From assembly GCA_035945995.1 (NCBI GenBank), contig DASYZR010000005.1:1-64000 (forward strand): a DNA stretch of 64,000 bases. Direction: 5' to 3'. Positions within the stretch are counted from its first letter, which is position 1. The number at the start of each line of letters is the position of its first letter. The DNA comes from a bacterium (GTDB lineage Bacteria > Sysuimicrobiota > Sysuimicrobiia > Sysuimicrobiales > Segetimicrobiaceae). Position numbers and translations under genes: made by a program. This document shows positions 14,069 through 28,766 of this stretch, piece by piece. The notes beneath the pieces are model-generated. The model did not search any database, was not told the origin of the DNA, and saw only the letters and a program-made list of their open reading frames with translations.

Positions 14069-14343
14069 CCCGCACGGGAGCGCCGGCCTAGTCCTCGGCG
14101 GGCTCGCCGGCGTCGCCGGCGCGTCGTGGATCCTACCTTGCCACCGGCGCGGGGCTGGGTCCCGCCATGCGCGGGACGGACATGACCGGCGGCGGCATGA
14201 TACCGATGGCGCCCGGGTGGACGCCCGGCTACGCCGCGCTGATGCTCGGCATGTGGACCGTCATGACGACGCTCGCCGGCCTCGTGGTGGCGGCCGTCGG
14301 AGTCTACCAGTTGACCCCGCTCAAGCGCTTGGCTCACGGATGA
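14052..14343 (+). pseudogene. degraded DUF2182 membrane protein gene
   Basis: From ATG 14052 the frame reads to SWI at about 14132. One extra base then shifts the reading, and the next frame continues with YLATGAGLGPAM, a tail containing MLGMWTVM and LAGLVVAAVGVYQLTPLKR, stopping at 14343. The YQLTPLKR motif and W-x-VM helix are marks of DUF2182 predicted metal-binding membrane proteins, which are normally more than twice this length. The piece shows a frameshift, an internal deletion between MWTVM and LAGL, and loss of the C-terminus. Its end overlaps the 3' end of the opposing helicase gene. Confidence 0.6.
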
Positions 14344-16615
14344 GCGCGCGCAGGAGCAGCACGGCCGCGCCCTTGTCGAGCGGCTCGTTCAGGTTGCCGC
14401 ACTTCGGGGACTGAATGCAGGAGGGACAACCGGCCTCGCAGGGACACGAGTCGATCACTTCGAGCGTCCGGGCGAGCAGGCCGTCCAGCAGTTCATACCC
14501 CTTCTCCGTCACGCCGACGCCGCCGGGATAGCCGTCGTAGATGAAGATCGTGGCGCGGCCGGTCTCGGGGTGCACCGGGTAGCTCACCCCGCCGATGTCC
14601 CACCGGTCGCACATCGCAAACAGCGGGAGCAGGCCGATCGCGGCGTGCTCGACGGCGTGGATGCCGCCCGCGAGATCGAGCCCGCGGTCCTCGACGTCGC
14701 GGGCGAGTGACGGCGGAAGGACGAGCCACAGCGCGGTCGTCCGCAGTTCTTCCTCCGGCATGTCGAGCGGATGCACGCCGAGGACCGTCTCGCTCGTGAG
14801 TTGCTTGCGGCGGTATTCGACGACCTGCTGCGTGACGCGTACGTCCCCAAAACAGGCGACGGCACCGGTGTCCCCGCCGGCCGGCCGCGAGGCCCGCTCC
14901 CCGAGGATCGCAAGATCCGTGAGCACGCGGGCCTCCGTGTAGTAGCCGCCGTCGTTGCGCTCGACGAGCGCGAGCCGCGCCTCCAAGTCCAGCCGGGCCA
15001 CCCGGTAGGCCTCGCCCTGGTGCAGGTAGATCGCCCCCGCGTGCACCTGCTCGAAGGCCCGTGAGGCATCCACGGTGCCGATGAGCCGACGCGATGTCGC
15101 CTCGACGATCCGGTAGGTGTCGCCCGACGCCGCCCGAATGTCGACGTGCCGCGCCGGGTACGTCCCGCTCCGCAGGTGCCACTTGTCGCGGCGCCGCACC
15201 AACTCGCCGAGCCCATCGAGGGCGGTCGCGACTTCCACCATGCGCGGCCCAAACAGCGCCCCATCGACCGGCGCAAGCGCAAGCTCGGCCGCGGCGCAGC
15301 GCAGGTGGGCGGCGAGAATGTACGGGTTTTCGGGGTCCACCGTGGCGTGCTCAACCGGCCGCCCGAAGAAGTACGCCGGTCGCCGCATCAGGTACTGGTC
15401 GAGCGCGTCCTCGAGCGCGATCAGCACCGCGAGCGCCTCCCCGGTGCCCCGCCCCGCCCGGCCCGCCCGCTGCCAGACGCTGGCCATCGTCCCCGGGTAG
15501 CCGACCATCACGGCGGCGTCGAGGGCGCCCACGTCGATCCCGAGCTCGAGCGCGCTCGTGCTGACGACGCCGAGCAGGTCGCCGCGAAAGAGCCGCTGCT
15601 CGATCGCCCGCCGTTCCTTCGGCAGGTACCCGGCCCGGTACGGGCTCACGCGGGCGGCCACCTCGGGCTGCTCGGCCAGGGCGTCCGTCGCGTACCGATA
15701 AATCAGTTCGGTGATCTTACGGGCCTTGGCAAACACGATCGTGCGCACGGCCTGCCGGACGAGCGAAGCGAACAGCCAGGCGGCCTCCGCGTACGGACTG
15801 CGCCGCCGCATCTCGGCGCGGCCAACCACCGGCGGATTCCACAGCACGAAACGGCGAGGCCCGCGGGGCGCGGCGTCGTCCGCGATGAGCCGCAGCGGCC
15901 GGCCGGTGAGCCGCCCGCCGAACTCCTCCGGGTTGGCGATGGTCGCCGACGTGCAGATCACCTGGGGATCGGCGCCGTTGACCCGGCAGGCCCGCCACAG
16001 GCGCCGCAGCACGAGTGCCACGTGGCTGCCGAACACGCCGCGGTACACGTGCATGTCGTCCACGACCACGTAGCGCAGCGAGCGGAGGAACGGCCGCCAC
16101 CACCGGAAGTGCTGCGGGAGGATCCCGACGTGCAGCATGTCGGGATTGGTGAGGAGGATCCGCCCCGCCTGCCGCAGCCGGCGGCGCTCGTCGGCCGGCG
16201 TGTCGCCGTCGTACGTCCCGTAGACGAGCCCGGGGAGCAGCGAGCCGAACTCGCCGATCGCATCGGCCTGATCCTGCGCGAGCGCCTTTGTCGGATAGAT
16301 GAACAGCGCGCGGGCGTCGGGATCCCGGACGAGCGTCTCGAGGACGGGCAGCAGGTAGCACAGCGTCTTGCCGCTCGCGGTCCCGGTCGTGACGATGACC
16401 GACGCCCCGTCGCGCGCCGCGTCGAGCGCCGCCGCCTGATGCGCGTAGAGCCGGGCGACGCCGCGTTCGCGAAGTGCATGAGCCAGCGGCGCGGGGAGGG
16501 GCCGCGCCGGGTCGGCATACCGCCCCGGTCGCGCCGGGAAACTCTCCTCGTGCACAATCTGGTCGCGGTAGCGGGGATCGCCGCGGAGTTCCTCGAGGAC
16601 GGCGGCGAGGTTCAT
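14321..16615 (-). CDS. mrfA: DEAD/DEAH-box helicase of the MrfA/YprA type with DUF1998 zinc domain
   Basis: A 764-residue superfamily 2 helicase. The Q-motif region reads YAHQAAALDAARDG (55-68), motif I TGTASGKT (77-84), and motif II is VVVDDMH, where DDMH replaces DEAH. Motif III is CTSATIANPEE, and the helicase C domain has TSALELGIDVGALD and WQRAGRAGRG. The C-terminal DUF1998 domain ends in a cysteine cluster (CPCEAGCPSCIQSPKCGN) that binds zinc in Bacillus MrfA, a mitomycin/crosslink excision repair factor. The repair role is inferred from the family. Full length. Confidence 0.88.
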   Translation of the reverse strand: MNLAAVLEELRGDPRYRDQIVHEESFPARPGRYADPARPLPAPLAHALRERGVARLYAHQAAALDAARDGASVIVTTGTASGKTLCYLLPVLETLVRDPDARALFIYPTKALAQDQADAIGEFGSLLPGLVYGTYDGDTPADERRRLRQAGRILLTNPDMLHVGILPQHFRWWRPFLRSLRYVVVDDMHVYRGVFGSHVALVLRRLWRACRVNGADPQVICTSATIANPEEFGGRLTGRPLRLIADDAAPRGPRRFVLWNPPVVGRAEMRRRSPYAEAAWLFASLVRQAVRTIVFAKARKITELIYRYATDALAEQPEVAARVSPYRAGYLPKERRAIEQRLFRGDLLGVVSTSALELGIDVGALDAAVMVGYPGTMASVWQRAGRAGRGTGEALAVLIALEDALDQYLMRRPAYFFGRPVEHATVDPENPYILAAHLRCAAAELALAPVDGALFGPRMVEVATALDGLGELVRRRDKWHLRSGTYPARHVDIRAASGDTYRIVEATSRRLIGTVDASRAFEQVHAGAIYLHQGEAYRVARLDLEARLALVERNDGGYYTEARVLTDLAILGERASRPAGGDTGAVACFGDVRVTQQVVEYRRKQLTSETVLGVHPLDMPEEELRTTALWLVLPPSLARDVEDRGLDLAGGIHAVEHAAIGLLPLFAMCDRWDIGGVSYPVHPETGRATIFIYDGYPGGVGVTEKGYELLDGLLARTLEVIDSCPCEAGCPSCIQSPKCGNLNEPLDKGAAVLLLRALIREPSA

Positions 16616-16696: not shown

Positions 16697-16945
16697 TCAA
16701 TGGCCGGCGAACCTGAACCCCACCGGGAGCAGGATGGAAACGACGAGCAAACCGAGGACCCAAAAGAACTGCCGGTCCATCCTCGCAAGGAACTCGCTTC
16801 TGAGGCTAATCTCGATCCGGTGCATCTCGCCTTGCAGGCTGCTCTCGATGCCGTGTATCGCCCTTCCGAGCCCTGCGATCTCCGCGCGAACTTGTGCGAA
16901 TCCTCCCCACCCAGTATAACATCGGCCATCCTGGAGCGTGATCAC
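16697..16945 (-). CDS. small coiled-coil protein with C-terminal membrane anchor
   Basis: An 82-residue predicted protein with an amphipathic heptad-like helix at about residues 16-55 and a C-terminal hydrophobic segment (FFWVLGLLVVSILLPVGF, 60-77). It is 25 bases downstream of the VirD4-like stop on the same strand, so it may be the last gene of the secretion operon. I recognise no family. XhlA-type small anchored coiled-coil proteins have a similar layout, but no homology is claimed. Confidence 0.5.
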   Translation of the reverse strand: MITLQDGRCYTGWGGFAQVRAEIAGLGRAIHGIESSLQGEMHRIEISLRSEFLARMDRQFFWVLGLLVVSILLPVGFRFAGH

Positions 16946-16970
16946 GGCATGAGTGTAGATAAAGGCGCCC

Positions 16971-18914
16971 TCACGATCGCATCCTCTCGACGGTGATCAA
17001 ACGATCTTGTAGATCTCGGCTCAAGATTTCAAGAGCGCGCCGCTCGAGCACAAAGACGGGCCGCACCCGTTTGACCCAACGAAGCGCGGCCCATCGAACT
17101 ATCGTCGCCTGGGCTCTGTCACCGCCGCCGAGGAGCCGGAATGCCAAGGCGGAATCGACTCGAGCTTCGGCAGGCCGGCTGCCACGGCACACCACCCGCA
17201 CCCGGGGGTCGTCGGCGCCGCCGCGGTCGAGGAGAGCGTCAACAAACGCGCAAAGTATCGATCGATCATCGTGGACGCCGTCATCCTCCAGATCGCCTGA
17301 CTGGGCGGCTGCCATGGACGACGGTGCGGCGGCGACGGCCCCGAGTGGTGACGGCGCTGGCTCCAGAGGTGCCGTCACAGGGAGAAGCGGCCTCGAGAAC
17401 GGGGCGCAATCAGACGACCGCCCTGTCTTGCGCCACTGCCATACGAGACGGTGCCGGATCGCGATGTCGATCGTGTGCGGCGGGACATCCGGGACAAGTG
17501 CACGATACTCAGGCCGCGCGTGAAACGGCGGACACCACAACCGCGCCGGCGGAAGCCGGGGACAGCGGACCACGATCTCGTCCTCGAATGCGTCGACACC
17601 TTGGAGAGACTCGGGACGCCGCAGCGGCACTTCGATGGCCCGCGTCTGCTCGCTCTCCTGTCTGCCCGCGCCTCCCCACCCTCGACTCCGTGACACTTGG
17701 TTGACGACCGCTGTGCCGAGCGCACGGCTCAGCCGCGCGGCATCCGGGTCCGCCAACGACGGAAAATAAATCTTGCTGACGAAGTTGGCCGTGATCGCCG
17801 CCCACCCGGCCGATCCGTATACGGCCTCCCCCTGCGCGTCGCTTTGCACGGTCGCAAAGATCGCCACGTCGCGGCTGCGAAAGGTTGCGAGGTGGTCGGC
17901 CAAACCCGGGAGCGGGCCCCAGGCAGGCAACTCCTCAAGCACAAACAACACGGGAACTGTGTGCTCCGGTCCGCGGGGGAGCAGCAGAAACGCGGCCAGC
18001 GTGCGCATGAACACGTGGCACAATACGCGGAGCCGGGGCAGCGCGGCCTGAGGTACGCCGACAAGCAGCAGCGTGGGTTCACGCCGCAACCGCGCCAGAT
18101 CGATCTCGTCCCACGATCCCGCGGGATGGCCCTCCACGGTCGCCCGCGAGACGCGTTCGTCCGCCCACGGGTCAAGGCGCGCGGCAATGCCCTGCAGGAT
18201 GCCCGCTTGATCCTTCGGCAGCATTGCACGGTACGCGCCAAGGCGGAGCGCAAGATTGGAGGCCTGAGGGTGGCGGCGGGCGTAGGCGGACACCGCCTCA
18301 GGGCCGGCTTCGGCCAAGGCGCGAAGCCGGCTCACGGAGCGGCCTCCCTCGTCTGAGCACAGCGCCCATGCCAGCACCGCACAGACATGGCGTTCCGCAC
18401 CCGTCCAGTACGCAGGATCGGCTTCCTCGCTCGGACCGTCGGGAAACAGCTGTACGGCGAAGTCATATGCGGCGGCGAACGACCGGCACGCCGCGAGCGG
18501 ATTCCATCGCAGTGTGGCGGAGTCGAGCGGCGCAAAGACGAGCACGTCACGGCGGTTGCGCCACCATTCGGGTGCAGCACCGGCAAGACTGTCGCGCTCG
18601 GCATACTTCAGATCAAATGCCACCACGGAGACGCCGGCGCGGGCCGCCTCGAGCAGAACGGGCAGCGTGAGCGCCGTGGTCTTGTGCGCGCCGGTAAGAC
18701 CCGTCACAAGAACGTGCCGGGCCAGATCCGCGTTCGGGAGACAGAGCAGCGGCCCCCGCAGAAGCCGCGGGACCGGCGCGTCCGACAGCCGTCGCCACGC
18801 CCCGACCGCGCGCGGCCAGGTTGGGAGGTATCCCAGCGGAAACCAGGCGGCCTCCGTCGGACGGAGCCGGGCCCGCAGTTCACTCCTGCGCGCGAACCGC
18901 GCACCGGGGCGCAC
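16971..18914 (-). CDS. VirD4/TraG-like type IV coupling ATPase
   Basis: A 647-residue hexameric-ATPase-type coupling protein that would bring DNA or protein to the secretion channel. The nucleotide site is HVLVTGLTGAHKTTAL at about 67-82, followed by VVAFDLKYAERD, the conserved VirD4 D-x-K-x-E segment. A Walker B-like VLFVLEELPAWGPLPGL lies near 318-334, with FRSRDVAIFATVQSDAQ and WAAITANFVSKIYF after it. The His before the catalytic Lys in motif I and Glu in place of Asp in motif II are unusual. The N-terminus has no membrane helices, unlike VirD4. After about residue 450 there is a poorly conserved 200-residue extension. It starts 3 bases after the preceding stop. Confidence 0.82.
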   Translation of the reverse strand: MRPGARFARRSELRARLRPTEAAWFPLGYLPTWPRAVGAWRRLSDAPVPRLLRGPLLCLPNADLARHVLVTGLTGAHKTTALTLPVLLEAARAGVSVVAFDLKYAERDSLAGAAPEWWRNRRDVLVFAPLDSATLRWNPLAACRSFAAAYDFAVQLFPDGPSEEADPAYWTGAERHVCAVLAWALCSDEGGRSVSRLRALAEAGPEAVSAYARRHPQASNLALRLGAYRAMLPKDQAGILQGIAARLDPWADERVSRATVEGHPAGSWDEIDLARLRREPTLLLVGVPQAALPRLRVLCHVFMRTLAAFLLLPRGPEHTVPVLFVLEELPAWGPLPGLADHLATFRSRDVAIFATVQSDAQGEAVYGSAGWAAITANFVSKIYFPSLADPDAARLSRALGTAVVNQVSRSRGWGGAGRQESEQTRAIEVPLRRPESLQGVDAFEDEIVVRCPRLPPARLWCPPFHARPEYRALVPDVPPHTIDIAIRHRLVWQWRKTGRSSDCAPFSRPLLPVTAPLEPAPSPLGAVAAAPSSMAAAQSGDLEDDGVHDDRSILCAFVDALLDRGGADDPRVRVVCRGSRPAEARVDSALAFRLLGGGDRAQATIVRWAALRWVKRVRPVFVLERRALEILSRDLQDRLITVERMRS

Positions 18915-18917
18915 TGT

Positions 18918-19544
18918 CTAGCGCACGAACGGAATACCGTACCCCTCAGGCACCGCGCGGAGCGTCACGCCGCACCGCCACCCTTGCCAAGTAATGAATG
19001 CGAAGACGGCGTACCCGTCTCTTTCGTAGGTCGCCAAATCGGCGATCAGGGGGGCCCACGCTTTCACGGATTCGAGGAACGGGTCACCCGGCGTGCGCAG
19101 GCTCGAGGACATACGCATGAGATCGTCGTGCTCACCGGCCTCCCCGCGCCCTGTCTCCCGGACCGCGGTTGAAAGCCGCGCCGCAATGTCTGGGAGTCGC
19201 GCGAGGCGACCCTCATTCGACGAGAACGCGCCGGGCGGCGACGCCGCCGGGCCGGTCACGAGAATCATGACGGCGCCTGGCCCGGGACAACCGTTCCAGA
19301 AATAGGGGACAAAAGGATACACATCGACGTCGACCGGGGCCTCCGGCCAGTGACGCGCGATCTCAACGCGCCCCGCGGCCCCGTCGACGAACGACAGAAC
19401 CGCGGCCGTGGACCCGGCCGGGTGAATCTGGCCCCGAACCGGCTCCGCGCCGTCGCACAACAGGCACAGCATGGCAACAACGGCAACCAAGCCGGCCGCG
19501 CGACGCGTCTTCGCGCACGCCGAGAGTCGGGCGCGGCGGTTCAA
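18918..19544 (-). CDS. exported protein of unknown function in the T4SS operon
   Basis: A 208-residue protein with a basic N-terminus and hydrophobic segment at about residues 17-30 (GLVAVVAMLCLLCDGA), consistent with a signal peptide or lipoprotein-like leader (LLC). The mature part has VDVDVYPFVPYFWNGCPGPGAVMILVTGP and two Trp-rich beta-like stretches near the end. The start is inferred as TTG 19544, which overlaps the upstream TGA and has GGAGGT 7 bases before it. No family was recognised. Its place between the VirB6-like and VirD4-like genes suggests an envelope component of the apparatus. Confidence 0.7.
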   Translation of the reverse strand: MNRRARLSACAKTRRAAGLVAVVAMLCLLCDGAEPVRGQIHPAGSTAAVLSFVDGAAGRVEIARHWPEAPVDVDVYPFVPYFWNGCPGPGAVMILVTGPAASPPGAFSSNEGRLARLPDIAARLSTAVRETGRGEAGEHDDLMRMSSSLRTPGDPFLESVKAWAPLIADLATYERDGYAVFAFITWQGWRCGVTLRAVPEGYGIPFVR

Positions 19545-20578
19545 TGCCAGGACCTCCGGTGACCGCGCAACGGGGTGGCTTCCTGGGCGCCCCCGTGCCC
19601 GCTCGCGCCTGCCGGCGGCACGTCGAGCGGGATCACGGCATCGGTCACGTTGACCTCCGGAATCCGGTGCGCCGCCCGGATGTACGAGGCCGCGATCTGG
19701 CTGCGAAGCCACATCGGACCTGCCAGAACGGCGTCGCCGAACGACGCCCCCTCCACGAACTGCCCAACGAGCCTCTCCACTCGCAGCATCGCGTAGACGC
19801 CCACGCCCGTGCCGACCAGCATGAGAAACAGCAACGCGGTAAGACGCCACAACAATGACCCGAGTGCCACCGGGCCCACGTCCGCCGGCGGAACGGGCAA
19901 CGCCGCCGCGACGTCACGAAACGGCACAATCACCGCAAGATACAACGTCGCCGCGTGGACCACTCGCACGCAGAACACGACGAGGCCGACGCGAATCACG
20001 ATCAGGGCCCACCTGGCGGTCCACCGCTGGGTGGACGGAGTCCCGAGCAGCGCGACCGCCAGCGGCGCCAGGAACAAGGCAAGCAGCAGCGTCAGGTGCG
20101 CGAAGAACAGAATCCCAAGATAGACGGCGGCGCCGACTGCGAACAGCACAACGCCCAGGCCGGCGCCCGCAGCGAGCACGGCTATGGCCCACGGATAGGC
20201 GAACCACGCGGACGATACGCGAAGCATCTGTTCAAACTGCGGCACCAGCGTGTCCTGAACAAACTGCACCCACGTCTGACCGATGAGCCCGTTGAGCACG
20301 GCGGCCCCCGCGCTCCGAAAGGTGTCAAAGCCCAGGAGAATCACGCGCGTGAGACCGCCGATGCCGGAGAGCAGTCCTCCGGCAAGAACCAAGCGGGCAA
20401 AGGCGCCGACGAGGTCAGGCTCGCGGCCGGGGCGGATCGAAATCGCGACGTGGCCGAGCCACAACACCGACAGGACGGCCCACGCGAAACGCATAACCGA
20501 CTCTGTCGCGCCGGTCGACACGAGCCACGTCTGGAAGGCTGAGAAGACCTCCCCGATACCTCGCTCGATGCCGGTCAC
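19541..20578 (-). CDS. VirB6/TrbL-like polytopic membrane protein
   Basis: A 345-residue inner-membrane protein with about six hydrophobic segments (near 30-48, 58-82, 127-150, 152-180, 190-212 and 230-252) and a hydrophilic C-terminus of about 80 residues. This layout and the conserved central Trp/Pro-rich loop fit VirB6/TrbL proteins, which form the inner-membrane platform of conjugation machines. Assignment rests on topology and operon position more than on sequence motifs. It overlaps the next gene at TTGA. Confidence 0.75.
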   Translation of the reverse strand: MTGIERGIGEVFSAFQTWLVSTGATESVMRFAWAVLSVLWLGHVAISIRPGREPDLVGAFARLVLAGGLLSGIGGLTRVILLGFDTFRSAGAAVLNGLIGQTWVQFVQDTLVPQFEQMLRVSSAWFAYPWAIAVLAAGAGLGVVLFAVGAAVYLGILFFAHLTLLLALFLAPLAVALLGTPSTQRWTARWALIVIRVGLVVFCVRVVHAATLYLAVIVPFRDVAAALPVPPADVGPVALGSLLWRLTALLFLMLVGTGVGVYAMLRVERLVGQFVEGASFGDAVLAGPMWLRSQIAASYIRAAHRIPEVNVTDAVIPLDVPPAGASGHGGAQEATPLRGHRRSWH

Positions 20579-20587
20579 CGCGGCCCT

Positions 20588-21580
20588 TCAGTACAGCGGA
20601 TCGAGCCGAATCTCGGCGCCGGGCTCTCCCGCTCCCGCGAGCAGCTGCCGGAAGAGCGCGGCGCCGCCCCGCGCGGCATCGGCCACGCCGAGGCGGGCAT
20701 CGAGGGCGCGACGGTCCCGCTCCAGATTGCGCTCCGTCAGCACGCCGATCGTGCCGGCGAGTGCGCCCATCTGTCCGCTCAACTGCGCGGTCTGCTGGAG
20801 CAGTCCGGTGATGCGATCCGCGAGGGCGACGCTGAGCGCGGCCTGGTGTCGTAGGCCGGCGCCCATGCCGGCAACCAGCAATTCGATGCCGGCGCGCGCG
20901 CTGGGCAGCCCCCGCGCATCGCCGATCAGCTGGTCGCCGGTTGCCTGCGCGGCATCGGCGGCCGCCGGCAGCGCCGGGTCCCGGACCGCCGCTACGGCGA
21001 CCGCGGCGGACGCGCGAATGGCCACTTCGTGCTCGACGGCGCCGGAGATCACTTGTTGGTCTGCGGCGACGATCGTGCCCGCCTCGTGGGAAAGCTCGGG
21101 GCTGTCCGCGATCTCGGCGGCGCGGCGTGTGCTGGATCCATCGGACGACGCCGGCACGCCGACCTTGGCCAGGGCGGCTGCGACAATCGCCCGCCATTGC
21201 TCGGGCAACGCGGCAAGCTCCGCCACGATGTCGGCGGGCCCGGCGCCCGCCGGAGAGTCCGTCGGCAGGGGCACGACGATCCGCGTAAGCGTCCCGGCCG
21301 CGGCCTGACGAAGCAGCTCGACCCATTGCGCCAAACGGTCCACGCCGTTCTGCAAGGCCGCAAGGGCGGCATGCAGCGACGCAGCCAGCGCGCCGGGATC
21401 GAGTGGACCGGTCGCCGGTGCCGGGGGCGCCGTCACAAACGGTACCGGCGCGGGCACCGGTGGCGGCCACGGCAGGAACTGCATCGGCGCGGACTGGGCG
21501 GAGACCGCGCCCGCACCGGCCGGGGCGGCGGCGCTCAGGGCGCAAACCAACACGACGGCGATCGCAACAATCCTATGCAT
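20588..21580 (-). CDS. secreted TrbJ/VirB5-like protein
   Basis: A 330-residue exported protein with a signal peptide at residues 1-28 (hydrophobic core IVAIAVVLVCALSAAAP, cleavage near AGA/VSA). A Pro-rich stretch follows, then a largely alpha-helical, Ala-rich region with coiled-coil character, ending with helices (LLQQTAQLSGQMGALAGTI, NLERDRRALDARL) typical of TrbJ/VirB5 pilus-tip proteins. ATG 21580 has GGAGG 4 bases upstream and overlaps the VirB4 stop by 8 bases. The family call is based on topology and order. Confidence 0.65.
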   Translation of the reverse strand: MHRIVAIAVVLVCALSAAAPAGAGAVSAQSAPMQFLPWPPPVPAPVPFVTAPPAPATGPLDPGALAASLHAALAALQNGVDRLAQWVELLRQAAAGTLTRIVVPLPTDSPAGAGPADIVAELAALPEQWRAIVAAALAKVGVPASSDGSSTRRAAEIADSPELSHEAGTIVAADQQVISGAVEHEVAIRASAAVAVAAVRDPALPAAADAAQATGDQLIGDARGLPSARAGIELLVAGMGAGLRHQAALSVALADRITGLLQQTAQLSGQMGALAGTIGVLTERNLERDRRALDARLGVADAARGGAALFRQLLAGAGEPGAEIRLDPLY

Positions 21581-24056
21581 GGGGCCTCCGTTGGTCCGCA
21601 AGACGTTCGATCGCAGGCCAGACGCCGATCTCGGCTGCGAGCCGGTCGCGCTCGCGGCGTTCTGCCGCCGTGGTCGTACCGATGAGGTAGTCTTCAGGAA
21701 TCTCGCGCACGGAAACGACGCCGCCCTCGCGGCCTTCCATGAGATCGAGCAGGATCAACACCTCGTTGTAGACGCCGCGGTGCTGCGTCAGCCCCTTCCA
21801 GAGCGCCCGATGCTGATCGTTCAGATTTAGGATCGGCGCGACACGGTCGACATCGGCGGCGCGGGTCAGGATCTTGAGCGGTGCGTTTTCGAGGATGCCG
21901 CGCGCATGCTCGTTCTCGAAGTCTCCCAGTCGCTGGCTGATCGCCATGATCCCGGCCCCGAACTTTCGGAAACGCCGGAACATGCCGACGAGCGACTCGG
22001 CCGCGACTCGATTGAGCAGCGCGGCCCACGTTTCGTCGCTCACCACATATTTGAGCCGGCCCGTGTCCGCGCGGACCCGCTGATAAATTAGGTAGTTGGC
22101 AAGAAGCGCGACGATGGGCGCCAGCTCGGGATACTGTTCGTCGAGACCCTCGGTATCGAGACAGACAATATCCGCGCGCAGGTCGACGGTGGACGGCCGA
22201 TCCAGGAGCCGGCCGTAGAGACCGTCCCCGCACCAGAGGTCAAGACGTGCCGCGATGTCCCGGGCCATCCGCCACTCCTCGGGTCCGGCGTCGTGTCCGC
22301 CCCCCTGTTCGAACGTGCGGAGCGTGTGGACTACGTCGTGGAGAAACACCGGCGCGGCGGCGGCCCGTGCATAGGCCTGGCGGAGGGCGGTATCGATCAC
22401 CGCCATCTCGCGCCGCCCCGGCGCGTCGTCCGGCTCGGCGACCATCAACGCCACCAGGCTGCGAAGGAGTCCGAAGTGCGCCGTATCGGGCTCGTGCTCG
22501 CCGGGAAGCAGCGCAAACGGATTGATGGATACGTCGGCCCCGGGGTCGACATGCACGTGCTGCCCGCCGTACACATCGCAAAACGTCCGGTACGCGCCGC
22601 CCTTGTCCACGATGAACACGATCGGATCCAAGGCCAGGAGACGCGACAGCCAGGCAAGCGCAAAATGGGTCTTGCCGCCACCGGACTCGCCGACCACGAT
22701 CGCGTTCCACGAAGGCAGGCGGGGATCAAACGGGTCGAGCGCGACGAGCGTATGCGCCCGCGTCGTGAGCAGACAAACCGGACGCGCGGCGCCCCGCCAG
22801 GGAGAGGAGCACGGGACAAAATCGGCGGCGTTGCTCGTCAGCATGCGCAGCAGCCGTTCGTTGGGCAGCCCGCTGAAGGGCGCGAGCTGAAAGAACTGCC
22901 GCCGGAGGGCCACGGACTCGACTCGCGCGTCGACGCCGGGGATCTGCCGGAAGGCATCGAGCGCACGGCGGGCCGCGTCGCGGGCTTCTTCAGGGCTTCG
23001 CTCCTGCACGAGAACGGCCACGCCGACCCGCACGACCCGCTCACTCGTCAACTGAATCAGATCCAACGCGCTCGAGACCTGCTGTTCAACCGCGCGGGCA
23101 TTGGAATCGCCGCCGTCCTGAGCCAGAACGGCCTGACGGCTCAACCGGCTCTTCAGTTCGAGACGCTTCAATTGATCCGACCTGCGATCGTTCCATACCT
23201 CGACGATCAGCCAGTAGGTTCCCGGCAACTCGAGCAACGGTACCACCGTGTTGGGCGTCGTCGGTCGATCGGGCAGGAGGTCCATGGCCACGACGGCATG
23301 CGCGTGCCCGTCCATCCAGAGAAAATCCCAGCGCCGGTACAGATCCGAACGCACGACGGCGGTTCGGAGCGACCCGCGGCCCAGCGAGGGCGAGGCGGCA
23401 AGCAGATGCCTCGGAATCTCCAAGTCGAGATCGGTGGGCACGGGCGGCGGTTGTTCGGTTCGCTTTCGTCCCGGGTTGAAATAGCGCCACATCGTCGCCA
23501 CGAGCGCGGCATCGCCCAACGGACGCGCATGGAATCCGCATCGCGCGCAATGCGTCACCATGGCCTCACGCAACGCATGGAGCTCGACTTGATGAAGCCG
23601 GTAGGTCGCCGTATCGATCGATCTCCACCAACGGCGGGCGCGGCGCGGCGGATGGTATGAGAGATCGAACACCAGCCGGTAGTTGACGAGGCGGCCGGCA
23701 TCGTGCGCCTTGGCAAGTGCCGCGGTGCGCCGGCGGTGCAGGTCTCGGACGCGGTCATGCCGGCTCTCCGCGACCGCCGAGTACGCGCGCAATACGTCCC
23801 GACAGTCGTCATGAACCTCGAGGAGAATCCGGAGGCACTCGCCTTCCGGCACGGCCGCATTGAGCAACGCGCGCAATTGGTCGTTACTCCGCGATAATTG
23901 CGCGGCGTCCCAGACTTCCGTGCCCGGCAGGGTGACGGCGAAGCCGAGGCGGTAACTGCCGTCGCGCAATATGACCGCGCCGTCTCGAACCATCCAATAC
24001 GGCAATTCGCGCGTGAGATTGCCGGGCAATTCGAGCGGCGACACGCGCGTGTTCAA
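21573..24056 (-). CDS. VirB4-family secretion ATPase
   Basis: An 827-residue conjugative ATPase that powers pilus assembly and substrate transfer at the inner membrane. The Walker A motif VVGESGGGKTHFALAW is near residues 448-463 and Walker B is YVVSDETWAALL near 667-678. Between them are VDKGGAYRTFCDVYGGQHVH and SINPFALLPG, and after them RRFRKFGAGIMAISQRLGDF, all conserved in VirB4/TraC. The N-terminal third is the variable CagE/VirB4 domain. The start is taken as TTG 24056 overlapping the upstream TGA; a GTG four codons later is the alternative. Confidence 0.9.
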   Translation of the reverse strand: MNTRVSPLELPGNLTRELPYWMVRDGAVILRDGSYRLGFAVTLPGTEVWDAAQLSRSNDQLRALLNAAVPEGECLRILLEVHDDCRDVLRAYSAVAESRHDRVRDLHRRRTAALAKAHDAGRLVNYRLVFDLSYHPPRRARRWWRSIDTATYRLHQVELHALREAMVTHCARCGFHARPLGDAALVATMWRYFNPGRKRTEQPPPVPTDLDLEIPRHLLAASPSLGRGSLRTAVVRSDLYRRWDFLWMDGHAHAVVAMDLLPDRPTTPNTVVPLLELPGTYWLIVEVWNDRRSDQLKRLELKSRLSRQAVLAQDGGDSNARAVEQQVSSALDLIQLTSERVVRVGVAVLVQERSPEEARDAARRALDAFRQIPGVDARVESVALRRQFFQLAPFSGLPNERLLRMLTSNAADFVPCSSPWRGAARPVCLLTTRAHTLVALDPFDPRLPSWNAIVVGESGGGKTHFALAWLSRLLALDPIVFIVDKGGAYRTFCDVYGGQHVHVDPGADVSINPFALLPGEHEPDTAHFGLLRSLVALMVAEPDDAPGRREMAVIDTALRQAYARAAAAPVFLHDVVHTLRTFEQGGGHDAGPEEWRMARDIAARLDLWCGDGLYGRLLDRPSTVDLRADIVCLDTEGLDEQYPELAPIVALLANYLIYQRVRADTGRLKYVVSDETWAALLNRVAAESLVGMFRRFRKFGAGIMAISQRLGDFENEHARGILENAPLKILTRAADVDRVAPILNLNDQHRALWKGLTQHRGVYNEVLILLDLMEGREGGVVSVREIPEDYLIGTTTAAERRERDRLAAEIGVWPAIERLADQRRPHA

Positions 24057-24373
24057 CCGACGTAGGGATTGGCGTCCTGGTCCGCGGCCAGAACGTAGGC
24101 GTTCGGCTCGCCGAGAAACTCCACAAGATGGCGGAGGAAATGCCGCGGTGCCCGTTCTCGCACACGCCGCCATGCGAAGAACAACAGGCCGGTGGCGGAG
24201 ACGGAAACCGCGGCCTCGGCCCGCGGCCAACCGAACGCCTGCCCCACCACCAGATCGCTGAGCCGGGACAGAACGACGAAAGCGATACCGAGCCCGAACC
24301 AATCTTCCAGCTCGACTCCAAGAAACGTAACCGGCGCATCAAGCTTGCGGTACACCGGGTGCCGGGGCAGCAT
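24053..24373 (-). CDS. VirB3/TrbD-like membrane protein
   Basis: A 106-residue inner-membrane protein. The N-terminal HPVYRKLDAPVTFLGVELEDWFGLGIAFVVLS layout is typical of VirB3: a short basic N-terminus, then two adjacent hydrophobic helices at about 22-40 and 50-66. A cytoplasmic tail of 40 residues follows. It lies directly before and overlaps virB4, the universal VirB3-VirB4 pairing. Confidence 0.82.
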   Translation of the reverse strand: MLPRHPVYRKLDAPVTFLGVELEDWFGLGIAFVVLSRLSDLVVGQAFGWPRAEAAVSVSATGLLFFAWRRVRERAPRHFLRHLVEFLGEPNAYVLAADQDANPYVG

Positions 24374-24419
24374 GCTTCACCTCCCGCGGCCGGCCGGGCG
24401 CGTCCAATGCCTCCGCGCT

Positions 24420-24722
24420 CTAGCCATGAATCATGCGGATGATTTGACCGCCGAAGAACAACACGACAGAACCAATGATGACCCACAGCGCGTTGCGAAT
24501 GCCGTTGCGATGATCGGCGATGATAACCGCTCCGGCCACGAGGAGAGCGGCCGTGGCGTAGGCCAATCCGAACGCGCCGGAGAGACTCAGTGCGGCCTGA
24601 TTGAAGAGGTTCGTGAGGGGCGCGAACAGATCACCCGACGGTACCCCCGGCGTCTGGGCGTCCGCGCGGGCGGCAACGCCGGACACCAGTATGAGCGCGA
24701 ACGCGCAAGCGGCGTACCGCAT
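24420..24722 (-). CDS. VirB2/TrbC-like major pilin subunit
   Basis: A 100-residue prepilin. A signal peptide covers residues 1-22 with an Ala-x-Ala cleavage site (ARADA). Two long hydrophobic helices follow at about 42-66 and 78-94 with a short positive loop (DHRNGIRN), ending in GGQIIRMIHG. This is the standard TrbC/VirB2 architecture that polymerises into a conjugative pilus. It starts 1 base after the VirB10-like stop. Confidence 0.88.
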   Translation of the reverse strand: MRYAACAFALILVSGVAARADAQTPGVPSGDLFAPLTNLFNQAALSLSGAFGLAYATAALLVAGAVIIADHRNGIRNALWVIIGSVVLFFGGQIIRMIHG

Positions 24723-24723
24723 C

Positions 24724-26067
24724 TCATGGCGCCTCCGTGATGAGAATCACGCATGACGTCCCCGCGGGAATCTCGACCGTCTTAATCGTCCCGGACGCCT
24801 GCGCCCTCAAGGTCTCGGCGAGACGTGCGGCCACGTACGTCCAGCCGGGAGCGGGTGCGCCGAGCGACACCTGCTCCGTGCCGTCTGTTACGGTAACTTG
24901 TCCGGCGTGTGCGAGGGCGGCGGCGTAATCGGATGCCGCCTGGAAGACGGCGCCGATCGCGGCTGCGGCCGCGGCCCGGCGGCGGATGACGACGCGGCCC
25001 GGCAATCCCGCCGATAGCCGACCGGGCTCAAGCGCCACACCGCGGAGCGGGGCCGTGCCCGGCACGGGGAGGCTGCCGGGCGGCGGCATCAACTCTACCC
25101 GGGAGCCGTCTGCGTCCGCCGACTGAAACGAGAGCTGAATGCGGTCGTCCGGTCCCGCAACGGCTCGACCAAGCCACGCCGACCCATCGGTCACACCTTC
25201 CGCCACAACCGGAACCGGCGGAGCGCCGGGCGCCACCACGACTCCGGTGACGAGACGCGCCAACAGCCGATCGCCGGGCCTGCGCACCCCCGGCCGCTCA
25301 ACACCGGCGGCGATTCGCGGCCATGCCGGAGGCGAATCCGGGGCATCGGCGGCGCCATCGCGGGCATAGACGACGGGAGAGGCCGGTGCACTATCGGCGC
25401 CACGCACCCGTGTGTCACCCGGCACCGCCCGGTTGAAGACGATCGCGGGCGGCGGACCGCCTGCCGCTTCTCGGCCGAAAGGGAAGGGCGGCAGCGGCAG
25501 CGCCGGCACGGGCGGCAACTGCGGCGACGGACGGAGCGGCGGGGGCGCAGGCATGTGCGATAGCTTTGTCCGGCCAACGATTCGGCGGCGTTCCGTCCCC
25601 GACTGCCGCACGGACGGCTGCGGAATCGACTCCGCCACCAACTCCAATGCAGCGGGTTTTGCGCGGGACGCACGCGCCGCCGGCCGTGCCGCCGATGCAC
25701 TGTGCGACCGATGCAGCAACGCCGAGCATCCCCCCACAATCAGCATGACCGCCGCAAGCCCAATCGGCGCCGCCGCCGCCAACCGGCGCTTGGCGAGGAG
25801 CCGGTCGCCCGCTTCACTCTCGTATTCACCCCACCCGAAGACCGCGCGACGCAGTGCGGCGCGCCGATGCCGCCGATGAAGAGTCCGCTCGCTGTCGAGC
25901 TGGATCTGGGAGCCGGACAGTTCGCTCAGCACCTGCGAGTAAACGTCCGGCGCGTCTTCGGCGAGCCGCGCGAGCACCTGCGGCACGGCGCCCGGCGAGA
26001 GATCAACGGTAGCTCCGAGCACCGCCCGAATCCGCGCCTCGGAGTGCGGGGCGAGCGCGATTTCCAC
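24724..26067 (-). CDS. VirB10/TrbI-like envelope-spanning protein
   Basis: A 447-residue protein with a cytoplasmic N-terminus, one membrane helix at about 97-115 (APIGLAAVMLIVGGCSALL), a long Pro-rich periplasmic stretch (170-200), then a C-terminal VirB10-like beta barrel domain containing GDRLLARLVTGVVVAPGAPPVPVVAE near 262-287. VirB10 links the inner-membrane ATPases to the outer channel. The start is GTG 26067 with GGGAGG upstream. It is the first gene of the operon. VirB10 proteins usually work with VirB7/9, and none is seen here. Confidence 0.78.
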   Translation of the reverse strand: MEIALAPHSEARIRAVLGATVDLSPGAVPQVLARLAEDAPDVYSQVLSELSGSQIQLDSERTLHRRHRRAALRRAVFGWGEYESEAGDRLLAKRRLAAAAPIGLAAVMLIVGGCSALLHRSHSASAARPAARASRAKPAALELVAESIPQPSVRQSGTERRRIVGRTKLSHMPAPPPLRPSPQLPPVPALPLPPFPFGREAAGGPPPAIVFNRAVPGDTRVRGADSAPASPVVYARDGAADAPDSPPAWPRIAAGVERPGVRRPGDRLLARLVTGVVVAPGAPPVPVVAEGVTDGSAWLGRAVAGPDDRIQLSFQSADADGSRVELMPPPGSLPVPGTAPLRGVALEPGRLSAGLPGRVVIRRRAAAAAAIGAVFQAASDYAAALAHAGQVTVTDGTEQVSLGAPAPGWTYVAARLAETLRAQASGTIKTVEIPAGTSCVILITEAP

Positions 26068-26189: not shown

Positions 26190-28766
26190 ATGAGTTCCCC
26201 CCTCACGGACGACCGGCGCCTTCCGCCCGATGCGCTCCGCCGCACCTGCGATCCGGCGAGCCTCGGGTTTGCCACGACCCGCGACCTCAAGCTCGACGGC
26301 CCGATGCACCTCGTCGGGCAGCCGCGGGCGGTGCGCGCGCTCGACTTCGGGCTGCGGGTGGACCAGCCCGGCTACAACCTCTTTGTGAGCGGGCCGCCCG
26401 GGACGGGGCGCATGACGTACACGCGCTCCGCGGTCGAGGATGCGGCGCGGACCGGACCGGTCCCGCCGGACTGGTGCTACGTCCGCAACTTTGCCGCGCC
26501 GAGCCAGCCGATCGCGATCTCGCTGCCGTCCGGGACCGGCCGGAAGTTCCAGCACGACGTGCAGGAGCTCATCACCGAGATCCGCGAGGGGCTCCGCCAG
26601 GCGTTCACGAGCGAGATCTACGAGCGCCGGCGCGCGGAGGTCGTGAAGCGGTACGAGCAGCGCGTCGCGGAGATCTGGGAAGGCCTCGAGGCCACGGCGC
26701 GGACCAAGGGCCTGATGCTCCAGCGGACCCCGACCGGGATCGCGACCGTCCCGGTCGACCTCCAGGGCAAGCCGATTCCCGAAGAGGTCTTCAACCAGCT
26801 CCCCGAGGCCGACCGGACAAAGTTGCAGCAGCGCACCGGGGAAATCGGGGACGCGGTCACGGAGGCCCTCCGGCAGGTGCGGGCGCTCGAGCGTGAAGGG
26901 CGCGACGCCCTGCGCCAGCTGGAGCGGCAGACGGCGCAGTACATGATCGACGCGCCGGTGGGCCGGCTCCGCGACCAGTACGCGGACCACCCGCGCGTGA
27001 CCGCGTACCTGGACGCGGCCAAGCAGGACATGCTGGACCACCTTTCCGAGATCACGCAGACCGGCGACGAGGAAGGCCAGACGCCGCAGGTGCAGCTGCC
27101 CGGGATGCCGCGGCGCGATCCGTTCGCCCGCTATCAGGTCAACCTGCTCGTTGACCACGCGGAGACGAAGGGCGCCCCGGTGATCTTCGAGACCAACCCG
27201 ACCTACTACAACCTCGTCGGCCGCGCCGAGCTCCGCGTCGAGTTCGGCGCGCTCGTGACCGACCTCACGATGATCAAGCCGGGGGCGCTCCACCTCGCGA
27301 ACGGCGGCTATCTCGTCCTGCACGCGCGCGACGTGCTGACGAGCCCGTTCGCCTACGAGGGGCTCAAGCGCGCGCTGCGCAGCCGCGAGATCCGCATCGA
27401 GCCGCTCGGCGAAGCGGCGGGTATGCTGCCCACGGCGACGCTGCGGCCCGATCCCGTCCCGCTCGACCTCAAGATCATCCTCGTCGGCACGCCCTACATC
27501 TACCACCTGCTCTACGCGCTGGACGAGGACTTCGAGGAGCTGTTCAAGATCCGCGCCGACTTCGACGTGACGGTGGAGCGCACGCCCGAGACCATCCGGG
27601 AGTACGCGCGGGCCGTCGGCGAGATCGTGCGCGGCTGCGGCCTCTGCCAGTTCGACGCGGGCGGCGTGGCCGAGATCATCGACCACAGCACGCGCATCGC
27701 CGGCGAGCAGGGCAAACTCAGCACGCGCTTCAACGAGGTCATGGAGATCGTCTTCGAGGCGGCCGCCTGGGCCACGCAGGCCGGGCGCGACGTGGCGGCG
27801 CGCGACGACGTCCGCCGGGCGATCGAGGAGAAGGTCCTCCGCAGCAACCTGATCGAGGAGAAGATCCGGGAGCTCATCGAGACCGGGACGATCATGGTCG
27901 ACACGCAGGGCCGGGTGGCCGGCCAGATCAACGGGCTCTCCGTGCTCGCACTCGGGGACTACATGTTCGGCCAGCCGAGCCGGATCACGGCGCGGGTCTT
28001 CGTGGGCTCCCGCGGCGTGGTCAACATCGAGCGCGAGACGCAGATGTCGGGGCGCATCCACAGCAAGGGCGTGTTCGTGATGGCCTCGTTTCTCGCGAGC
28101 CGGTTCGCCCAGCAGGCGCCCCTCAGCCTGTCGGCGTCGCTCACGTTCGAGCAGCTCTACTCCGACGTCGACGGCGACAGCGCGAGCTCGACGGAGCTCT
28201 ACGCGCTCCTGAGCGAGCTCTCCGGCCTGCCGATCGATCAGGGCATCGCGACGACCGGCTCCGTCAACCAGCGCGGCGAGCTGCAGCCGATCGGCGGCGT
28301 CAACGAGAAGATCGAGGGCTTCTACTACACCTGCAAGGCGAAGGGCCTGACCGGCGGCCAGGGCGTCCTCATCCCGCAGCAGAACATCCGCAATCTGATG
28401 CTGCGGGGCGAGGTCGTGGACGCCGTGCGCGCCGGCCGGTTCCACGTCTGGGCCGCGCGGACGATCGACGAGGGCATTGAGATCCTGACGGGCGAGGCGG
28501 CCGGGGCCCCGGACGGCGACGGCAAGTACCCCCCGGACTCGATCAACGGCCGCGTCCAGGCCCGCCTGGCGCAGCTGGCGCGCAGCCTGCAGCTGTCCGG
28601 CGCGGACCGGCGGGACGGCACACCGGCGACGATCATCGTCCCCGCGGCGCCGGCGCCGCCGCCGGTGCCGGGTCCGCCGCCCGGTCCTCCCGAGCCTCCG
28701 CCCCCCGGCGAACCGCCTGGGCCCGGCACGCCGCGGACGTCCCGCGGCCCGGCCTCAGATCGCTGA
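26190..28766 (+). CDS. Lon-family ATP-dependent protease (AAA_32/LonB-like)
   Basis: An 858-residue cytosolic protease of the Lon-related group with an N-terminal AAA_32 region rather than the LonA substrate domain. The P-loop-like GPPGTGRMTYTR (about 67-78) has Arg where Walker A normally has Lys. A coiled-coil insert runs about 145-300. The C-terminal S16 peptidase has a Ser-Lys dyad, Ser664 in DGDSASS and Lys707 in GGVNEKIEG, 43 residues apart as in E. coli Lon. A Pro-rich tail follows residue 820. ATG 26190 follows a GGAAGG site. It is divergent from the secretion operon. Confidence 0.88.
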   Translation: MSSPLTDDRRLPPDALRRTCDPASLGFATTRDLKLDGPMHLVGQPRAVRALDFGLRVDQPGYNLFVSGPPGTGRMTYTRSAVEDAARTGPVPPDWCYVRNFAAPSQPIAISLPSGTGRKFQHDVQELITEIREGLRQAFTSEIYERRRAEVVKRYEQRVAEIWEGLEATARTKGLMLQRTPTGIATVPVDLQGKPIPEEVFNQLPEADRTKLQQRTGEIGDAVTEALRQVRALEREGRDALRQLERQTAQYMIDAPVGRLRDQYADHPRVTAYLDAAKQDMLDHLSEITQTGDEEGQTPQVQLPGMPRRDPFARYQVNLLVDHAETKGAPVIFETNPTYYNLVGRAELRVEFGALVTDLTMIKPGALHLANGGYLVLHARDVLTSPFAYEGLKRALRSREIRIEPLGEAAGMLPTATLRPDPVPLDLKIILVGTPYIYHLLYALDEDFEELFKIRADFDVTVERTPETIREYARAVGEIVRGCGLCQFDAGGVAEIIDHSTRIAGEQGKLSTRFNEVMEIVFEAAAWATQAGRDVAARDDVRRAIEEKVLRSNLIEEKIRELIETGTIMVDTQGRVAGQINGLSVLALGDYMFGQPSRITARVFVGSRGVVNIERETQMSGRIHSKGVFVMASFLASRFAQQAPLSLSASLTFEQLYSDVDGDSASSTELYALLSELSGLPIDQGIATTGSVNQRGELQPIGGVNEKIEGFYYTCKAKGLTGGQGVLIPQQNIRNLMLRGEVVDAVRAGRFHVWAARTIDEGIEILTGEAAGAPDGDGKYPPDSINGRVQARLAQLARSLQLSGADRRDGTPATIIVPAAPAPPPVPGPPPGPPEPPPPGEPPGPGTPRTSRGPASDR

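Follow-up and report, generated by a model that had tools for sequence, protein, structure and literature searches.

Conjugation machines usually belong to plasmids and integrative elements. The Ced and Ted importers of hyperthermophilic archaea provide a precedent for a domesticated, DNA-moving type IV secretion system (T4SS; PMC9905601), as they are chromosomal, fixed in their lineages, free of relaxase and built around a core of VirB2-, VirB4- and VirB6-type proteins (PMC9905601, PMC11868833). Furthermore, ComB of Helicobacter pylori, which takes up DNA, is chromosomal and contains VirB2-B4, VirB6 and VirB10 parts (PMC12857230), while the T4SSs of Patescibacteria are lineage-wide and mostly devoid of relaxase (PMC12102498). 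Here, we describe a T4SS operon at positions 16697 to 26067 of a 64,000-nucleotide stretch (the window) of contig DASYZR010000005.1, our contig C5 of the bacterial assembly GCA_035945995.1 (4.15 Mb, 98.8 % complete). The host is an uncultured soil bacterium of Segetimicrobiaceae (f1 in our family numbering) in the phylum Sysuimicrobiota, also called CSP1-3, in which Candidatus Segetimicrobium genomatis (ANGP1) is assigned to Candidatus Segetimicrobiaceae (PMC11604079). Secretion systems go unmentioned in the paper that describes the phylum, and our literature search found no paper linking CSP1-3 with type IV secretion.

The family locus shares with Ced and Ted a chromosomal position, fixation, vertical inheritance and the lack of a relaxase. 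In contrast to them, it has VirB10, VirB3 and VirD4, of which VirB10 is missing from Ced/Ted. ComB differs in having VirB7-B9, in lacking VirD4 and in working with ComEC, whereas the family locus has VirD4, no VirB9 was found for it and its hosts have no ComEC. The patescibacterial systems are of the monoderm MPF-FATA type and belong to a different component family. We propose that the chromosome of the Segetimicrobiaceae ancestor captured a conjugation apparatus, which then shed its mobilisation functions and was kept as a cellular machine, possibly for DNA exchange or uptake in the place of ComEC, a reading as a whole that we consider evenly balanced. A bacterial family that combines a fixed, mobilisation-stripped conjugation machine with the lack of the near-universal DNA channel ComEC makes it testable whether a T4SS can replace ComEC for DNA entry into a bacterium.

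The locus is fixed in Segetimicrobiaceae

The operon occupies 26067 to 16697 of the minus strand as a single close-packed run, with genes head to tail and mostly overlapping or separated by at most 50 bp. Their order is VirB10, VirB2, VirB3, VirB4, a protein in the VirB5 position, VirB6, a protein named here X, VirD4 and a small membrane protein. To follow the locus in the phylum, we used 43 genomes, 12 of them Segetimicrobiaceae; all genomes compared were metagenome assemblies. A VirB4 search of this set returned 11 of the 12 family genomes and only four others, and in the family genome G010 (64 % complete) the genes for VirD4, X and VirB6 adjoin the same helicase gene at a contig end as is found beside the operon in the window. 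In each of the 12 family genomes the T4SS locus has this MrfA-type helicase gene nearby, at a distance of 5-7 kb in G005 and G007, and thus holds the same chromosomal site in every family genome compared and across at least four genera. On the other side, a LonB-like gene stands beside the locus wherever the contig covers it, except in G006. The tree of VirB3, VirB4, VirB6 and X had the same topology as that of the two flanking genes in ten genomes, and the VirB4 proteins of the family formed a single clade. Estimates of dN/dS, which are rough, as several dS values were high, amounted to about 0.05-0.12 for virB3, 0.07-0.09 for virB4 and 0.12-0.27 for virB6. Since the locus occupies the same place, follows the same tree as its neighbours and is under purifying selection, the apparatus is fixed in the lineage, as the original prediction had offered as one option, and does not show the sporadic, host-discordant distribution of a conjugative element. 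It was acquired once, long ago, and has been maintained by selection, and we regard its capture and fixation as near certain. No clean empty site was shown in other families, where the genes surrounding the helicase gene are arranged differently.

VirD4 is kept in 11 of the 12 family genomes, an MFS gene occupying its place in G004. The locus of G006 is also damaged: virB2 is truncated at the 5' end, no virB10 was seen in 60 kb of upstream sequence and a distance of about 66 kb separates the locus from the LonB-like gene. A primase-polymerase-like gene lies on the opposite strand beside the broken virB2 (G006:C34, L105), which suggests that a small element was inserted or that the region was rearranged, and could also reflect an assembly join.

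No mobilisation gene was found at the locus, and related systems keep Replic_Relax-like genes

The operon had been described from its sequence as lacking a relaxase, an integrase, VirB11 and VirB8/9. Among the proteins of the operon and its neighbours that were scanned, we found no relaxase, integrase, VirB8, VirB9 or VirB11. Across the genome, the relaxase profiles PF03432, PF08751 and PF03389 (MOB-P, MOB-F and MOB-Q) gave no match, other MOB families not having been searched at this scale, and neither did the VirB9 profile (CagX, PF03524); VirB8 and VirB11 were not searched genome-wide. Within these limits the description held, and the VirB8, VirB9 and VirB11 of the canonical VirB/D4 (MPF-T) set were not found. 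MOB-P, MOB-F and MOB-Q were also missing from ten other family genomes checked, near-complete or partial. The only family relaxase detected by the three profiles was a MOB-F (TrwC) protein of G001, a 1076-aa open frame (L075, G001:C39:18382-22110) on a different contig from the T4SS.

The nearest annotated relatives of the family T4SS are plasmid systems of Thermus, on pTA69 and on plasmid 3 of T. thermophilus TTHNAR1. Their VirB4 is 31 % identical over 94 % of the length and their VirD4 31-32 % identical, and the VirB10 of pTA69 is homologous to that of the family (hhalign 99.1 %, E 1.3e-18). They share the order VirB2-VirB3-VirB4-(B5)-(B6)-VirD4, with virB10 adjoining virB2; the VirB5 and VirB6 proteins gave no profile match with their Thermus counterparts, so that equivalence is positional. 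Like the family locus, the Thermus plasmids yielded no match to MOB-P, MOB-F or MOB-Q. Unlike it, they carry virB10 divergent from virB2 with a Replic_Relax-like neighbour, as well as downstream genes for a lytic transglycosylase and a SpoIIIAA/VirB11-like ATPase, and no X was found in them. We had considered that the missing VirB8, VirB9 and VirB11 marked a decayed VirB system; this idea was dropped, as the Thermus relatives are also without a CagX match. MOB-suite types the Thermus plasmids (L063, L064) as non-mobilizable, and the pTA69 genome paper assigns a relaxase to the plasmid (PMC4605624). The Replic_Relax-like gene next to virB10 could encode a mobilisation protein that has escaped recognition.

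Within the phylum, sporadic relatives occur in G029, in G036 and as a second system of G005 (contig C11). A Replic_Relax-family gene lies beside or divergent to virB10 in G029, G036 and pTA69 (sub-threshold Pfam matches), and at the same place tblastn detected relatives of it in T. thermophilus and G005. The SpoIIIAA/VirB11-like ATPase is encoded in the two Thermus plasmids, G015, G017 and G005 C11 (42-69 % mutual identity), and a VirB9-like protein in G015, G017 and G029. None of these three proteins had a tblastn match in the window, in the other family T4SS loci or in the sampled half of the G006 genome. The systems of G015, G017 and G029, which belong to other families of Sysuimicrobiota, have the same order VirB10-B2-B3-B4-B5-B6-X as the operon of the window and a VirB4 that is 47 % identical. 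They differ in that, in G015 and G017, virB10 is preceded by VirB9-like and VirB11-like genes and X has no VirD4 next to it, whereas G029 has VirD4 and the Replic_Relax gene, and genes for SSB-like and primase-zinc-finger proteins lie close by. No relative of VirB4 was found in viral contigs. Because the mobile relatives keep Replic_Relax-like or VirB11-like genes, the family system can be read as a mobile system minus its mobilisation gene and other parts. From these comparisons of gene content, it looks like a captured and stripped conjugation system and not a recent remnant; the earlier suggestion of a trimmed conjugative element is thus right as history.

ComEC is absent from the family, while DprA is mostly present

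ComEC searches gave no match in the 12 Segetimicrobiaceae genomes and a match in 27 of the 31 other genomes of the phylum, including all 19 of those that are at least 90 % complete. It is present in G015, G017 and G029. In G015 and G017, ComEC together with the lack of VirD4 beside X, judged at the locus only, would match a ComB-like arrangement in two steps. Ten of the 12 family genomes gave a DprA match, the gene lying in a comM-comF-dprA-topA cluster where examined. The only two without it are G004 and G006, the same two with a damaged T4SS locus, a coincidence with a chance of 1 in 66 that was spotted after the fact. Secretins were present in 11 of the 12 genomes; an outer membrane is therefore probable in the family and would account for the reach of VirB10. 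The original prediction had left DNA transfer, DNA uptake and effector delivery side by side. The ComEC/DprA pattern tips the balance somewhat towards DNA exchange or uptake but is no proof of either, and this is the function that we tentatively favour, with a confidence slightly short of even.

Identity of the operon components

VirB4 with VirB6 and VirB3, VirD4 and a VirB10-type C-terminal domain mark the operon as a T4SS, as first read from the sequence. All its genes are on the minus strand. The VirB2/TrbC pilin (24420..24722, 100 aa) matched Pfam TrbC with E 1.9e-9. The VirB4 ATPase (21573..24056, 827 aa, with a TTG start overlapping the virB3 stop) matched the Pfam TraG P-loop domain (2e-21), NCBIfam TIGR02746 (6.3e-59) and, in the PDB, TrwK (3.5e-7), and has an intact Walker A motif, GESGGGKT. 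VirB3/TraL (24053..24373, 106 aa) is by itself a weak TraL match (0.037), the call being borne out by its relatives in six family members (best 2.8e-7). VirB6/TrbL (19541..20578, 345 aa) is a polytopic membrane protein with five hydrophobic segments and a sub-cut-off TrbL match (E 4.4e-4).

VirB10 (24724..26067, 447 aa, GTG start) was weak by sequence (TrbI, E 0.02) and had no plasmid relative by tblastn. An AlphaFold model of its C-terminal domain, built from 14 family sequences (pLDDT 82), gave significant PDB matches that were all VirB10-type (DotG, Xanthomonas VirB10, TraB, CagY and TrwE; best E 8e-8), so the predicted fold confirms its identity. The protein consists of a cytoplasmic N-terminus, one membrane helix (about residues 96-114), a proline-rich stretch and the VirB10 domain. 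The exported helical protein between VirB4 and VirB6 (20588..21580, about 330 aa) had been called TrbJ/VirB5; this label is not supported by any profile match and reflects its position and its helical, coiled-coil-like sequence, for which only helical-bundle-like matches were obtained.

The VirD4 coupling ATPase (16971..18914, 647 aa; T4SS-DNA_transf 1.3e-25, with NCBIfam support as for VirB2 and VirB4) matched Cag5 and TrwB in the PDB. It has its own C-terminal domain and no clear N-terminal membrane anchor; the VirD4 proteins of genus g1 are without N-terminal membrane segments. The Walker A motif in the window is GLTGAHKT. In an alignment, GLTGAHKT or GLTGSHKT, with His replacing the usual Gly, occurs in eight family genomes, while the P-loop is the canonical GLTGAGKT in G007 and G009, and GGTGAGKT in G029.

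X (18918..19544, 208 aa) is an exported protein belonging to the T4SS, and the unknown exported protein noticed at first reading is real, with relatives in 14 other loci. It has an N-terminal hydrophobic signal or anchor followed by about 170 residues, and an alignment of 15 sequences revealed 27 invariant positions, two highly conserved Cys and a C-terminal motif, VPEGYGIPFV. Its dN/dS of 0.16-0.31, likewise a rough estimate, indicates faster evolution than that of VirB3 and VirB4. X had no match in Pfam, NCBIfam or the PDB and none in plasmids by tblastn, and its AlphaFold model (pLDDT 49) was too poor for use. Searches of PDB sequences with profiles of X, VirB5, VirB6 and VirB10 returned no useful relative. 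The last gene (16697..16945) encodes an 82-aa protein with a C-terminal membrane helix, 45 % identical to a protein encoded close to the second T4SS of G005 and 34 % to one encoded in G002.

Proposed mechanism and alternatives

The gene content, fixed position, vertical descent and purifying selection of the locus, the absence of the common relaxases and of ComEC and the presence of DprA form the basis of the following model. After capture of the conjugation apparatus in the family ancestor and loss of its mobilisation functions, VirB3, VirB4 and VirB6 would form the inner platform, with VirB4 driving assembly. VirB10, perhaps with X and the VirB5-position protein, would span the periplasm, and VirB2 would build a short pilus, so that VirB10, VirB6, VirB3 and VirB2 would together make an envelope channel and pilus; X would be an exported accessory part. 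We infer that the machine carries chromosomal DNA, in exchange between cells or in uptake, and that it stands in for the lost ComEC. At the inner membrane, VirD4 would drive the movement of single-stranded DNA, which DprA would pass to RecA. In the simplest joint reading, the T4SS would import DNA in place of ComEC, and its breakage would mean that DprA is no longer kept. The specific version, in which the captured machine replaced ComEC as the DNA entry, with VirD4 as motor and DprA as receiver, as a bacterial counterpart of Ced/Ted, is rather doubtful.

Several points weigh against DNA uptake by this system. The loss of ComEC and the fixation of the T4SS happened once each on the tree and make one data point, whatever Fisher's test says; the ComEC contrast alone cannot prove replacement. 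The absence of DprA from G004 and G006 was read from metagenome assemblies that are 96-97 % complete, the dprA cluster and its flanks were not found in G006, of which about half of the genome was sampled, and the damage to the G006 locus could be an assembly fault. Furthermore, DprA is common in bacteria not known as competent, and a bacterial VirD4 normally exports. The model also leaves X unexplained. Finally, ComB, the known bacterial uptake T4SS, has no VirD4 and acts together with ComEC (PMC12857230).

Among the alternatives, X, being exported, always present and faster evolving than VirB3 and VirB4, could be the cargo of a fixed, contact-dependent effector-delivery system comparable to the killing T4SS of Xanthomonas, as could proteins encoded elsewhere. 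However, X forms one conserved family, present in single copy and lacking the variability of toxins, and no effector- or immunity-like gene is present in the operon. Most family genomes retain a VirD4 that has a C-terminal domain of its own, a point in favour of this reading, but VirD4 is missing from the G004 locus, which retains the rest. The C-terminal fold of VirB10 resembles Xanthomonas and Dot/Icm proteins and equally conjugative ones. Effector delivery also leaves the ComEC/DprA pattern unaccounted for, and we consider it unlikely.

An immobile, relaxase-free exporter of chromosomal DNA on the donor side, with an outcome like that of the gonococcal island or the push-type transfer of Thermus, is improbable. 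VirD4 and the kinship with Thermus plasmid transfer systems agree with it, yet no relaxase was found and the operon has no nuclease to make the substrate. The DNA helicase gene directly downstream in the same direction could be taken in its favour, but this is a core gene present in 39 of the 43 phylum genomes, mostly without an adjoining T4SS, and its proximity may be meaningless. An adhesive or sensing pilus that transports no substrate would agree with the constant core of VirB2, VirB4, VirB6 and VirB10 and with a VirD4 that can be missing; it is very improbable, as 11 of the 12 family genomes retain a VirD4 with its own conserved C-terminal domain, needless for an adhesion pilus. Finally, a still mobile element or a recent, decaying remnant, with relaxase and integrase elsewhere, would suit the sporadic phylum relatives with their mobility-type genes, the G001 relaxase and the damaged G004 and G006 loci, but it is largely refuted by the shared position in at least four genera and the congruent trees, conflicts with purifying selection, the lack of MOB-P/F/Q in ten other family genomes and the lack of framing repeats, and has hardly any probability left.

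Flanks of the locus and other secretion loci in the phylum

The original prediction had placed the operon behind its own promoter and seen no attachment ends. A consensus scan found a sigma-70-like box, TTGACG-16-TATATT, at 26150-26123 on the minus strand (10/12 matches), a candidate promoter that was scored by sequence consensus alone and carries no functional weight. Direct repeats of at least 18 nt around the locus were imperfect and GC-rich, and none framed the operon; the sole tRNA gene, for tRNA-Glu, is 3.5 kb from it with two genes between, in line with that observation. Upstream, the divergent LonB/LonC-like protease gene (26190..28766, plus strand; Pfam AAA_32 1.5e-53) and, downstream, the MrfA/TIGR03817 DEAH helicase gene (14321..16615, minus strand; Pfam MZB 9e-28) are family-wide neighbours. 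The helicase scores above the cut-off for TIGR03817, a family named "helicase/secretion neighborhood" after its frequent nearness to secretion genes. Its wide occurrence in the phylum without a T4SS beside it weakened our idea that it is a part of the machine.

The families f5 and f7 have related T4SSs (L032, 5106-15586; L033, 4574-13786) with VirB9-like and SpoIIIAA/VirB11-like proteins and X, and without an adjacent VirD4. They adjoin chromosomal genes in ComEC-bearing genomes and could represent a second captured system. The second, distant T4SS of G005 on contig C11 (L036, L071, L072) is accompanied by SSB-like proteins, a ParM-like ATPase, the VirB11-like ATPase and the relative of the 82-aa protein, with a paralogue of X about 10-20 kb away, and is probably an integrated element or a plasmid.

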